This document shows, piece by piece, positions 55,196 to 59,653 of a stretch of 64,000 bases of DNA (position 1 is the first letter of the stretch; the number at the start of each line of letters is the position of its first letter). This DNA comes from Actinomycetota bacterium (GTDB lineage Bacteria; Actinomycetota; Geothermincolia; Geothermincolales; RBG-13-55-18). Location: contig JACIXC010000003.1 in the NCBI GenBank assembly GCA_014360655.1, forward strand, positions 186,001-250,000. Reading direction: 5' to 3'. The position numbers and the translations under genes were made by a program. The notes under the pieces were generated by a model. The model worked only from the letters and a program-made list of their open reading frames with translations, was not told where the DNA came from and did no database searches.

Positions 55196-55398
55196 GAGGA
55201 GGGGGCGGCGCGGGAAGAAGGACGCCCGCACCGTAAGATATGGTGATCTTTTCCATGTGACGCGTCCCCGTTGGCCGCGCGCGGGAGATGCGGTCCCCAC
55301 CGGCGCGGCCCCGGCGGAGGCGCCCGGCGCGCGGTCGTCCCGCCGCGGGGGCGTGGCGTGGCGGGGCGAAAATGGGGGAGGAAGGCGGAGGCGGCGTC

Positions 55399-56535
55399 GT
55401 GCGCATCCTGGTGTGTCCCGACAAGTTCAAGGGTTCTCTCACTGCGGGCGAGGCATGCGAGGCCATCGTGCGGGGGGTCCGCGACGGGTGGCCGGAGGCG
55501 GAGACGGTCGCCTGCCCCCTGGCGGACGGTGGGGAGGGCACCCTCGAGGTGCTGGTGAGGGCCACGCGCGGCCGCGTGGTGGTCGTGGAGGCCACGGGAC
55601 CCCTGGGCGAGAAACTGCGGGCTCCCCTCGGCATCACCGGCGACGGAAGGACGGCGGTGGTGGAGATGGCCGCAGCCTCCGGCCTGGAGCTCGTGCCGCC
55701 CGGGAGCAGGGACCCCGGGGTGACCACCACCAGGGGAACGGGGGATCTCATACGCGGCGCCCTCGACCTGGGTTTGCGGCGCATCATCGTGGGCATCGGG
55801 GGCAGCGGGACCAACGACGGCGGCGCGGGGATGGCGGCCGCGCTGGGGGCGCGCTTCCTGGACGGCGAGGGGCGCGAACTTCCGCCGGGAGGGAGGGGGC
55901 TGCTGGGACTGGCGCGTATAGACCTCTCGTCAATGGACCCCCGCGTGCGCGAGACGGAGATCGTCGTCGCCAGTGACGTGGACAACCCCCTCCTCGGCCC
56001 GCGGGGGGCTGCTCGCGTCTACGCACCGCAGAAAGGCGCCGGTCCGGAGGACGTGGAGGTCCTGGAAAAAGGACTGGCCCGCCTGGTGGAGGTAGCTTCC
56101 TCGTGCGTCGCCCCGGGGCTGGAGGACATGCCGGGAGCCGGCGCCGCCGGGGGACTGGGTTTCGGGCTCGCGGCCTTCCTGGGAGCCCGCGTGCGCCCCG
56201 GTATCGAGGTGGTCATGGAAGCGCTGGGTTTCGAAGGGCTGTTGCGCTCCTGCGACCTGGTGGTGACGGGGGAGGGCAGGCTCGATGACCAGACGGCGCA
56301 CGGGAAGACGGTTTGCGGGGTGGCGAGGAAAGCCCGCGAGAGGAGGATACCCGTGCTGGCCCTGGGCGGGGAGGTGGCGGAGGGTGCGGAGGCCCTGCAC
56401 GCCCTGGGAGTGAGCGCGGTCCTGGGCATATGCCCCGGCCCGCTCAGCCGCGAGGTGTGCATGGAGCGGGCGGCCTCCATGCTGCGCCGCGCGGCGCGGG
56501 AGGCGGCGGGCCTGCTGCGGGCGCTCGCCGTCTGA
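55399..56535 (+). CDS. glycerate kinase (GckA/GarK type I family)
   Basis: 378 residues. ILVCPDKFKGSLTAGEACEA, LADGGEGTLEVLVRAT, GIGGSGTNDGGAGMAAALGA and VVTGEGRLDDQTAHGKTVCG are the family signatures. It phosphorylates glycerate to 2- or 3-phosphoglycerate. GTG 55399 gives the conserved start VRILVCPDK and the usual length; ATG 55372 in frame is also possible. Confidence 0.92.
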   Translation: MRILVCPDKFKGSLTAGEACEAIVRGVRDGWPEAETVACPLADGGEGTLEVLVRATRGRVVVVEATGPLGEKLRAPLGITGDGRTAVVEMAAASGLELVPPGSRDPGVTTTRGTGDLIRGALDLGLRRIIVGIGGSGTNDGGAGMAAALGARFLDGEGRELPPGGRGLLGLARIDLSSMDPRVRETEIVVASDVDNPLLGPRGAARVYAPQKGAGPEDVEVLEKGLARLVEVASSCVAPGLEDMPGAGAAGGLGFGLAAFLGARVRPGIEVVMEALGFEGLLRSCDLVVTGEGRLDDQTAHGKTVCGVARKARERRIPVLALGGEVAEGAEALHALGVSAVLGICPGPLSREVCMERAASMLRRAAREAAGLLRALAV

Positions 56536-56642: not shown

Positions 56643-56692
56643 TACGCTGCATAATCACGGTTCCGCGTCGATTCGGGAGCGGAGGAGCACGC

Positions 56693-57082
56693 ATGCGGCA
56701 CACGGAAAAAGCGGCCTACCACGCCGTCGTGGTCCTTGCGGCGCTCGCGGCCTTCGCGTTCATGGCGGGTTGCGGGAAGCAGGCCGCAAGGGAGCGGGTG
56801 GAAACGGGGAAGCCGGCGGTGCTCAACTTCTGGCAGCCCGGCTGACCGCCGTGCAAGGCCATGGAGCCCGTGCTGGCTCAACTGCAGGAGGAATACGGGG
56901 AAGAGGTCGGCTTCCTCTCCTACAACGTCTACGAGGCGAGGGAGGAGGCCGGTTCGTACGGCATACGGGTCACCCCCACCTTCGTCTTCCTGGATGCGGA
57001 AGGACGGGAGGTGTCCAGGCTGACCGGGCAGCAACCGCCGGACACCATGCGTTCCCATATCCGGGAGGCGCTGGAGGAGTGA
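56693..57082 (+). CDS. thioredoxin-like lipoprotein, probable selenoprotein (Sec at in-frame TGA)
   Basis: 130 codons from ATG 56693 (GGAGGAGCACGC upstream) to TGA 57082. Signal peptide with lipobox FAFMAGC, then a thioredoxin fold: KPAVLNFWQPG-[TGA]-PPCKAMEPVLA, later GIRVTPTFVFLDAEG (cis-Pro) and a C-terminal helix. The TGA (56843-56845) is codon 51, exactly the first cysteine of WxxxCxxC; both sides are in the same frame and match the family. A hairpin follows at SECIS distance. So the active site is probably Sec-Pro-Pro-Cys, an extracytoplasmic thiol oxidoreductase. Alternatives are a nonsense mutation or sequencing error. First gene of a molybdenum-cofactor operon. Confidence 0.8.
56864..56879 (+). 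promoter_or_regulatory. candidate bacterial SECIS hairpin
   Basis: GAGCC (56864-56868), loop CGTGCT, GGCTC (56875-56879). It lies within the coding sequence, with its loop 23 nt after the TGA, and has a G in the first two loop positions, matching the general bacterial SECIS pattern. Confidence 0.6.
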
Positions 57083-57084
57083 AC

Positions 57085-57150
57085 ATGCGCTTCGGGACGC
57101 ACGTTTCCGTGCCGCAAGAGGTTGCGGGGAAAGGCAAGGACTTTCGATGA
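57085..57150 (+). CDS. 21-codon mini-ORF bridging thioredoxin and moaA
   Basis: ATG 57085 lies 2 nt after the thioredoxin stop and 5 nt after GGAGGAG. It ends at a TGA that overlaps the moaA ATG (ATGA at 57147-57150). The peptide (MRFGTHVSVPQEVAGKGKD...) has no known family. It seems to carry ribosomes across the 64-bp gap. Confidence 0.5.
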   Translation: MRFGTHVSVPQEVAGKGKDFR

Positions 57151-58118
57151 GCTCTCTCGTGGACCGCTTTTCGAGGCCGATAGATTACCTCCGCCTGGCG
57201 GTGACCGACCGCTGCAACCTCAGGTGCATCTACTGCATGCCCCCCGAGGGGGTGGAGCACCTGGCCCACGAGGATATCCTCACCTACGAGGAGATACTGC
57301 GTTTCCTGCGCGTGGCGGTGAGGGCGGGGATAAGCAAGGTGCGCCTGACGGGAGGGGAGCCCCTGGTGCGCAGGGACGTGGAGCACCTCGTCGAGGGGAT
57401 CGCGTCTCTCCTGCCGAGCCTGGACATATCCCTCACCACCAACGGCGTCCTCCTTGCCGGGAAGGCCGAGGCGCTGGCGCGGGCGGGGCTGAAAAGGGTC
57501 AATATCAGCATAGATTCGCTGCAGCCGGATACCTACCGCCGCATCACGCGCGTGGGAAAACTGCACGAGGCTCTGGCGGGCATGGAAGCCGCCCTGGAGG
57601 CGGGCCTCAGCCCGGTGAAGGTGAACGTGGTGGTGCTCGATCACCTCGTGGACGAACTGGAGGGCTTCGTGGACCTGGTGCACCGCCTGCCGGTGCACGT
57701 GCGCTTCATCGAGTACATGAGCCCCTGCGGGACGATGGACGGCTCCCATTACGTGCCGGCAGGCGAGATCAGGCGGGGACTGGAATCCTACGGCGACCTG
57801 CGGGAGGCCGCGCCGCCGCCGGGGGCGGGGCCGGCGCGCTACTTCAGGCTCCCGGGCGCCAGGGGGCTGTTCGGGTTCATATCGCCCGTCAGCTCGCACT
57901 TCTGCCCCGAGTGCAACCGGCTGCGTCTCACCGCCGACGGTAAGATGAGGCCCTGCCTCTTCTCCCGGGACGAGACCGACGTGAGGGAGGTCCTGCGGGG
58001 AGGGTGCACGGACGAGGAGGTCCTGCGCGTCATCAGGCGTTGCCTGGAAAAGAAACCCAGCGACCACGGGGGCATCTCTTCCTTCGCCGGGAGGACCATG
58101 TACCAGATAGGGGGCTGA
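57147..58118 (+). CDS. moaA: GTP 3',8-cyclase (molybdenum cofactor biosynthesis MoaA)
   Basis: 323 residues, radical SAM enzyme converting GTP to 3',8-cyclo-GTP. N-terminal cluster CNLRCIYCMPPEG, SAM region LTGGEPLVRRD, NISIDSLQPDTYRRIT, and the C-terminal substrate cluster HFCPECNRLRLTADGKMRPC. ATG 57147 lies in an ATGA shared with the preceding mini-ORF. The C-terminal double-glycine end (IGG) needed by MoaA is present. Confidence 0.96.
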   Translation: MSSLVDRFSRPIDYLRLAVTDRCNLRCIYCMPPEGVEHLAHEDILTYEEILRFLRVAVRAGISKVRLTGGEPLVRRDVEHLVEGIASLLPSLDISLTTNGVLLAGKAEALARAGLKRVNISIDSLQPDTYRRITRVGKLHEALAGMEAALEAGLSPVKVNVVVLDHLVDELEGFVDLVHRLPVHVRFIEYMSPCGTMDGSHYVPAGEIRRGLESYGDLREAAPPPGAGPARYFRLPGARGLFGFISPVSSHFCPECNRLRLTADGKMRPCLFSRDETDVREVLRGGCTDEEVLRVIRRCLEKKPSDHGGISSFAGRTMYQIGG

Positions 58119-58121
58119 GGG

Positions 58122-58643
58122 ATGGCTCGCGAAACGGGTCGGGGAAAGTCCGCGCAGGAAGGATTGACCCATCTCGACGAGAAGGGCAAGGCCAGGATGG
58201 TGGACGTCAGCGGCAAGAGGGTCACCACGCGCACCGCCGAGGCCGGGGCGAGGGTGCTCATGAAGGCGTCCACCCTGCGGCTCATCCTGGAGGGCGGGGT
58301 GGAGAAGGGCGACGTGCTCGCGGTGGCCCGCGTGGCGGGCATCATGGCCGCCAAGAGGACCAGCGAGATAATCCCCATGTGCCACCCCGTGGCCGTCACC
58401 TCCGTGGAGATCGACTTCCGCGTGGAGGAGGAGACGCCGGCCATCGCCGTGCTCGCCAGGGCGAAGACCCGCGACCGCACCGGCGTGGAGATGGAGGCCC
58501 TCACGGGCGCGGCGGCGGCGGCCCTCGCCATCTACGACATGTGCAAGGCGGTGGACCGCGCCATGACCGTGAGCGACCTGCGGCTGCTGAGAAAGGCCGG
58601 GGGCAGGTCCGGGACCTTCGTGAGAGGAGACGACGATGCCTGA
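58122..58643 (+). CDS. moaC: cyclic pyranopterin monophosphate synthase MoaC
   Basis: 173 residues. TRTAEAGARVLMKASTLRLI, SEIIPMCHPVAVTSVEIDF and YDMCKAVDRAMTVSDLRLL are the signatures, including the catalytic lysine region. It completes formation of cPMP with MoaA. Starts 3 nt after moaA and overlaps the MOSC gene by 8 nt. Confidence 0.96.
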   Translation: MARETGRGKSAQEGLTHLDEKGKARMVDVSGKRVTTRTAEAGARVLMKASTLRLILEGGVEKGDVLAVARVAGIMAAKRTSEIIPMCHPVAVTSVEIDFRVEEETPAIAVLARAKTRDRTGVEMEALTGAAAAALAIYDMCKAVDRAMTVSDLRLLRKAGGRSGTFVRGDDDA

Positions 58644-59082
58644 AGGCGAGATCGTCGCCGTGTGCCTGAGCGCCGAGAAGCACGTGCAGAAGGACGAGGT
58701 GGACGAGGTGCTGCTCCTGGAGGACCTGGGCATCGAGGGCGACGCGCATGCCGGTTTCGCCCACCGACAGGTCAGTCTCCTGGCGCAGGAAAGCGTGGAC
58801 AAGATGCGCGCCAGGGGCCTCGAGGACCTGCGCCCGGGAGCCTTCGGGGAGAACCTGTTGACACGGGGCATGGACCTCGTGAGCCTGGAGGTCGGCACCC
58901 GCCTGCGGGTGGGTGAAGAGGCGCTGCTGGAGGTGACCCAGATAGGGAAGGAGTGCGTGGACCGCTGCGCCATATACTACGCGGCCGGGGACTGTATCAT
59001 GCCCCGGGAGGGCATCTTCGCCCGCGTCCTGCGCGGGGGGCGCGTCAGGCCGGGGGACGTGATCGAGGTGGTGGAGGAATGA
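58636..59082 (+). CDS. MOSC-domain protein
   Basis: 148 residues. The MOSC fold is marked by GIEGDAHAGFAHRQVSLLAQ and GAFGENLLTRGMDL, with the conserved cysteine in TQIGKECVDRC. MOSC domains move sulfur to or from molybdenum or bind pterin cofactors. Part of the moa operon, overlapping moaC by 8 nt. Confidence 0.92.
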   Translation: MPEGEIVAVCLSAEKHVQKDEVDEVLLLEDLGIEGDAHAGFAHRQVSLLAQESVDKMRARGLEDLRPGAFGENLLTRGMDLVSLEVGTRLRVGEEALLEVTQIGKECVDRCAIYYAAGDCIMPREGIFARVLRGGRVRPGDVIEVVEE

Positions 59083-59141
59083 GCCCCGGCTGCCTACGGG
59101 TCGCGCTGCGGCGTGCGGGGAAAGGCGGGGAAAGGGCATGA
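59079..59141 (+). CDS. 20-codon mini-ORF bridging MOSC and mogA
   Basis: It starts within the MOSC stop (ATGA at 59079-59082) and ends at a TGA overlapping the mogA start (ATGA at 59138-59141), so every base of the gap is coding. Sequence is MSPGCLRVALRRAGKGGERA; no family. Confidence 0.5.
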   Translation: MSPGCLRVALRRAGKGGERA

Positions 59142-59653
59142 GCGGCCCGGCGATGGAACGGCCGGCCTTCCGCGTGGCCGTTCTCACGGTGAGCGACAGG
59201 GGGTCCACGGGCGAGAGGGAGGACCTCTCCGGGCGCGCCGTGGAAGAGCTGGTCCTCGCGCAGGGCTGGACGGTGGAGAGGCGCGAGGTGGTGCCCGACG
59301 AGGCGGTGAGGATAGAGGAGCGCCTCCGTTACTACTGTGACCGCCTGCGGGTGGACCTGGTGCTCACCACGGGGGGAACGGGCCTCAGTCCCCGCGACGT
59401 CACGCCGGAGGCGACGCGCGCCGTGCTGGAGAGGGAGGCGCCGGGCTTCACGGAGGCCATGCGGGCCGCCTCGTTGCGGGTGACCCCCCACGCCATGCTC
59501 TCGCGCGCCGTGAGCGGTATCCGAGGCGCGACCCTCATAGTCAACCTGCCGGGGAGTCCCCGCGGGGCGAGGGAGAACCTGGAGGTCATCCTGCCCGCCC
59601 TCCCCCACGGGCTGGACAAGCTGCGCGGCGACCCCTCGGAGTGCGCCGGCTGA
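59138..59653 (+). CDS. mog: molybdopterin adenylyltransferase MogA/MoaB family
   Basis: 171 residues. LTTGGTGLSPRDVTPEATRA and IVNLPGSPRGARENLEVILP are the MPT-binding and nucleotide motifs. It adenylates molybdopterin before molybdenum insertion. Starts inside the ATGA shared with the mini-ORF; there is an in-frame ATG five codons later as alternative. Last recognisable gene of the operon. Confidence 0.94.
   Translation: MSGPAMERPAFRVAVLTVSDRGSTGEREDLSGRAVEELVLAQGWTVERREVVPDEAVRIEERLRYYCDRLRVDLVLTTGGTGLSPRDVTPEATRAVLEREAPGFTEAMRAASLRVTPHAMLSRAVSGIRGATLIVNLPGSPRGARENLEVILPALPHGLDKLRGDPSECAG

Follow-up and report, generated by a model that had tools for sequence, protein, structure and literature searches.

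Thioredoxin-like proteins with selenocysteine (Sec) in a UxxC active site are covered by reviews of 2022 and 2026 (PMC9312934, PMC13188914). A Sec thioredoxin of the PF00085 family (e.g. WP_010956703.1) is listed there as experimentally verified, and a UxxC thiol:disulfide interchange protein of the PF13098 family (e.g. WP_011366075.1) as predicted (PMC13188914). The word 'lipoprotein' is absent from both reviews, which does not mean that none of the listed proteins could be one (PMC9312934, PMC13188914). Here we describe an actinobacterial gene, found in a window of 64,000 nucleotides (the whole stretch of DNA that was analysed), which very probably encodes a selenoprotein, a membrane-tethered thioredoxin with Sec as its key catalytic residue.

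The gene (Table 1) encodes a 129-residue thioredoxin-family protein which, when translated through its one internal TGA, reads MRHTEKAAYHAVVVLAALAAFAFMAGC...NFWQPG[TGA]PPCK; the frame ends at a further TGA, at 57080-57082. As the initial annotation had described, the internal TGA takes the place of the first Cys of a WxxxCxxC site and the frame is unbroken on both sides. In profile searches the best family is Thioredoxin_2 (PF13098; 61.3 bits against a cut-off of 27), with Thioredoxin (PF00085) also well matched (58.5 bits, cut-off 23.5). Having passed a curated cut-off, and with a UPPC site and a TPT motif, the protein can be assigned to the thioredoxin superfamily; from general knowledge of the fold, we take the TPT proline to be the cis-proline. 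None of the NCBIfam models reaches its cut-off with the UxxC protein, the TrxA equivalog TIGR01068 scoring 59.8 of the 96.8 bits. An AlphaFold model made from the single sequence was poor (mean pLDDT 62) and is not drawn on.

Table 1. Coordinates of the UxxC gene, its parts and neighbours, the Sec genes and related loci. Positions without a prefix are those of the window.
Feature	Position	Strand	Basis
Glycerate kinase, conserved upstream neighbour (true start probably further in)	55288-56535	+	family search, synteny
GGAGGAG, Shine-Dalgarno-like, 5 nt before ATG	56681-56687	+	sequence
UxxC thioredoxin (putative lipoprotein) gene, 129 residues with predicted Sec51, TGA end	56693-57082	+	translation, homologues, family search
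Signal peptide with lipobox-like FMAG-C27 (putative lipidation)	56693-56773	+	motif
TGA probably read as selenocysteine (Sec51)	56843-56845	+	frame, homologue comparison, selection
Resolving Cys54 (TGC)	56852-56854	+	sequence, homologues
SECIS-like hairpin, 5 bp (GAGCC 56864-56868; loop CGTGCT 56869-56874, G at position 2; GGCTC 56875-56879)	56864-56879	+	folding and comparison
Presumed cis-proline of TPT motif	56975-56977	+	position by analogy with thioredoxins
moaA, conserved downstream neighbour	57147-58118	+	family search, synteny
moaC	58122-58643	+	family search, synteny
MOSC-domain gene	58636-59082	+	family search, synteny
mog/moaB-type molybdopterin-binding gene	59138-59653	+	family search, synteny
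selD, own in-frame TGA in context LSSKSG[U]AAK	C5:14179-15102
selA	C5:19381-20475		family search
selC, tRNA-Sec with UCA anticodon	C5:22650-22741		RNA family search
Fer4_5 gene, tail to tail with UxxC relative	L046:4428-5342
Fer4_5 gene, tail to tail with UxxC relative	L048:2964-3875
Fer4_5 gene, tail to tail with UxxC relative	L049:2824-3840
Fer4_5 gene, tail to tail with UxxC relative	L050:3069-3968
Fer4_5 gene, tail to tail with UxxC relative	L063:6519-7382

The Sec genes were located by family searches and contig stretches in the genome, a draft assembly of 35 contigs that totals 2.97 Mb and is 99.96% complete. All of selA, selB, selC and selD are present within about 9 kb, selB following selA on C5. 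Four genes of the same genome, selD and three formate dehydrogenases, have an in-frame TGA in their known Sec contexts, which in the dehydrogenases lies before HS.TVAG. Decoding of Sec in this genome is as well supported as sequence allows.

A second match to the RF01852 family was considered as another tRNA-Sec and ruled out, having a GCA anticodon and U73, and thus being no reader of UGA. This tRNA-Sec-shaped molecule (L072:1570-1658, minus strand; C5:58369-58457 in the genome itself; 59.3 bits, gathering threshold 47) occurs alongside an ordinary tRNA-Cys at C30. It is found also in G001, G004, G005 and G008, with further RF01852 matches in G009 and G011. It resembles the selC* tRNA-Cys, which has been listed from Firmicutes, Thermodesulfobacteria, Nitrospirae and Proteobacteria only (PMC7609411).

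A homologue search of 148 related genomes recovered seven genes of one clade, the query (G000) included. At the syntenic codon TGA is present in the query and in five of its six orthologues (G002, G005, G009, G011 and G013), while the sixth, from the sister species G001 (69% identical), has TGC at exactly the same position. When all homologues other than the query are considered, this alignment column holds TGA in 22 and Cys in 5, and TAA or TAG never; the 21 beyond the syntenic six have TGA or Cys there and nothing else. The TGA of the more distant homologues falls at exactly the same column, and most of these have a lipobox-like Cys; their Cys versions are those of G017, G018, G022 and G025. 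A protein scan of a wider contig collection gave distant matches only, the two with TGA being named Actinomycetes MAGs. A tRNA-Sec is retained in the Cys-version genomes G001, G022 and G025, and none scores over the Rfam cut-off in G017 or G018. When the variable column is masked for tree building, the distribution of Sec and Cys requires three changes, of which well-supported branches force at least two. The region downstream of the TGA is under purifying selection, with dN/dS values of 0.26 (G000/G001), 0.30 (G005/G011) and 0.27 (G005/G009), and no copy of the gene in the homologue set contains a further stop. On these alignments, the position of the TGA is beyond chance, and the gene shows the pattern by which bacterial selenoproteins are recognised: UGA at the catalytic Cys position, alternating with Cys among homologues.

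A published model of the bacterial SECIS (bSECIS) element specifies a stem of 4-16 bp, a loop of 3-9 nt with G in its first two positions and lying 16-37 nt after the UGA, and an energy of -7.5 kcal/mol or lower (PMC13188914). The hairpin noted in the initial annotation has this geometry, with five pairs, a 6-nt loop and G at position 2, although the distance of 23 nt from the TGA given there fits the apical loop, the stem starting at 18 nt. Folded in isolation it reaches -6.6 kcal/mol, short of the model's threshold, compared with -10.0 to -10.9 kcal/mol in three orthologues. An equal or better SECIS-like hairpin occurs at 18% of codon positions in neighbouring genes, and synonymous-codon shuffling of this gene gives p = 0.04. 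The hairpin of this gene alone is therefore weak evidence, being common by chance, and convinces only through comparison of orthologues and homologues. Across the Sec orthologues it is conserved: G009, G011 and G013 have seven pairs around the same loop position, G005 has one mismatch and G002 folds into a hairpin that differs somewhat and has a GTGT loop. In G001, the Cys orthologue, the loop G is gone, as are several pairs. Covariation is uninformative among the close orthologues, which show zero double changes. In 17 more distant UxxC genes, where the hairpin lies one codon further on, both partners have changed in five pairs. The covariation score there, 0.433, exceeds that of shuffles (0.127 +/- 0.030), a control inflated by relatedness, and that of slid controls (at most 0.135), which preserve relatedness and are still far below. 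Contiguous-stem scoring with synonymous shuffles gave a pooled Fisher p of 7e-8 for the Sec genes but, since these are related, we do not rely on it.

Could the TGA be a true nonsense mutation in a pseudogene, or a TGC miscalled in the assembly? The draft state of the genome and the TGC of its closest relative would allow it, but five other genomes share this TGA at the corresponding locus, no copy has any other stop and selection acts after the TGA, all of which make this extremely improbable. Equally, there is next to no chance that the UGA is decoded as a standard amino acid such as Cys or Trp, whether through readthrough or by some tRNA besides tRNA-Sec. Such a reading could draw on the tRNA-Sec-like tRNA-Cys of this genome, given that selC*-type tRNAs elsewhere can have a UCA anticodon (PMC7609411). 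Here, however, the anticodon is GCA, so UGA is not read by that tRNA. Moreover, of 10 genes counted in this stretch one stops at TAG and nine at TGA, which is thus an ordinary stop here and has undergone no general reassignment. The SECIS-like hairpin, too, accompanies the TGA, not the Cys orthologue. Against Sec itself stand the weakness of the single hairpin, the sister species that manages with Cys, and G023, whose gene has the TGA form yet whose incomplete assembly contains no tRNA-Sec over the Rfam cut-off. The initial proposal of a selenoprotein is nevertheless well supported by the Sec machinery, the Sec/Cys alternation and the conserved hairpin, and we regard it as almost certainly correct. 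The case is one of sequence throughout, comprising the open frame, thioredoxin family membership, Sec machinery, Sec/Cys alternation, purifying selection, hairpin conservation and synteny.

The N-terminus has a charged n-region, a hydrophobic stretch and a lipobox Cys, FMAG-C27 fitting a PS51257-like pattern. Among the orthologues the strict pattern fits G002, G009 and G013, whereas G001, G005 and G011 keep the Cys but fall outside; overall it fits some 60% of homologues, this protein among them. The lipoprotein assignment made at first is thus plausible on account of the conserved Cys after a hydrophobic stretch, and tempered by the share of homologues fitting the strict pattern. With such a signal peptide the protein should be extracytoplasmic, and its features support an exported, membrane-anchored UxxC thiol:disulfide oxidoreductase. 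In G023 (L065) and G024 (L054) the UxxC domain is preceded not by a lipobox but by a zinc-ribbon-like segment at the N-terminus and a hydrophobic helix, by sequence an alternative membrane anchoring.

From this record we infer Sec insertion itself, lipidation, the reductase direction, the electron donor and the substrate, in the following scheme. SelB and the UCA-anticodon tRNA-Sec would decode the internal UGA as Sec, directed by the hairpin just downstream, and the product would leave the cytoplasm, acquire a lipid on Cys27 and remain anchored to the outer side of the membrane. Sec51-Pro-Pro-Cys54 would then form a thioredoxin-type reductase site. Its nucleophile would be the Sec51 selenolate, directed at a disulfide (or another form of oxidised sulfur) in an extracytoplasmic substrate, and the resulting mixed selenosulfide would be resolved by Cys54. 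Once oxidised, the protein would probably be reduced again, across the membrane, by the single DsbD_TM/CcdA-type protein of the genome (C3:14380-15021), whose gene adjoins a Cys thioredoxin-like gene.

The order of glycerate kinase, UxxC gene, moaA, moaC, MOSC and mog is unchanged in all six near relatives, and the gap between the UxxC gene and moaA is 64 nt here, the relatives having gaps of about 23 to 65 nt. Between glycerate kinase and moaA, neither a promoter nor a terminator was detected by a simple consensus scan. The conserved order and short gaps make co-transcription with moaA likely, in agreement with the operon first suggested. Among UxxC relatives at other loci, several, from five of the related genomes, lie tail to tail with a gene for a membrane 4Fe-4S (Fer4_5) protein, a possible electron partner of the UxxC lipoprotein. 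At one locus (G087, L055:3945-5599) the order is a Cys thioredoxin, an FmdB-like zinc-ribbon ORF, the UxxC lipoprotein and a CsoR-type metal-sensing repressor. At another (G147, L056:4009-7627) two UxxC lipoprotein genes lie close together, about 1 kb from the start of a molybdopterin oxidoreductase which is stop-interrupted and may itself be a selenoprotein.

As to function, extracytoplasmic thioredoxin-fold proteins include oxidases and isomerases, and the UPPC site differs from CGPC, the classical site of thioredoxin. A selenoprotein acting as oxidase or isomerase of extracytoplasmic disulfides is unlikely, however: the best families are Thioredoxin_2 and Thioredoxin, not DsbA, and a search of the genome for VKOR and DsbD_TM found the DsbD_TM/CcdA-type protein and no VKOR. 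Sec is moreover a reactive, low-potential nucleophile, and its low redox potential favours reduction. Together these favour a reductase, a role which we consider reasonably likely. The initial annotation also proposed a link between selenium and molybdenum enzymology. Of this, the position beside the moa genes is real and conserved in the family, while a functional link is circumstantial only. A gene specific to molybdenum-cofactor or molybdoenzyme biology, maintaining, for example, a reduced thiol in an exported molybdoenzyme or maturation factor, would accord with the fixed place directly before moaA in seven genomes, with the formate dehydrogenases of this genome, which are of the molybdopterin family and have in-frame TGA, and with the one distant UxxC pair near a molybdopterin oxidoreductase start. 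Yet it too seems improbable, as the protein is predicted to lie outside the cell and the moa products are cytoplasmic, and as nothing matching these moa genes lies near the other UxxC relatives examined. Literature searches yielded nothing relevant on a selenothioredoxin tied to moaA. It is a still bolder and quite doubtful idea that a widespread membrane-anchored UxxC family serves this actinobacterial lineage as a dedicated extracytoplasmic reductant for selenium- and molybdenum-dependent enzymes. If true, it would explain the fixed place directly before the moa genes.

Annotation is likely to break genes of this kind into a truncated lipoprotein and a headless thioredoxin, so that counts of selenoproteins in this lineage are probably too low. 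The orthologues also amount to a clean natural experiment: at a single locus, one species has Sec and its sister has Cys, and the SECIS-like hairpin has decayed in the Cys copy. What an extracytoplasmic thioredoxin gains from Sec in place of Cys can thus be tested directly.

When compared with known systems by family and motif, the protein shares with the PF00085 Sec thioredoxin the thioredoxin fold, Sec at the N-terminal catalytic position and the resolving Cys, but differs in its signal peptide and lipobox-like Cys and in falling below the TrxA equivalog cut-off. SaoT (NF040730) is likewise a UxxC thioredoxin-like selenoprotein; its model is unmatched by this protein even at E = 0.01, and none of the identified neighbours is a sao gene. 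ResA and TlpA, which in known cases are fed by CcdA, would resemble it in working as membrane-tethered extracytoplasmic thioredoxin folds, but they have Cys, not Sec, and the protein lies far below their cut-offs (32 bits against 170 for ResA, 23.5 against 230 for TlpA). The closest described group is probably that of the PF13098 UxxC proteins, with which it shares both its best-matching Pfam family and the motif, and from which it is set apart by its locus beside moaA. Since UxxC thioredoxins of PF00085 and PF13098 are already known, the protein is a further case of a described selenoprotein type: not a new phenomenon, but a good fresh case with a notably complete comparative record.
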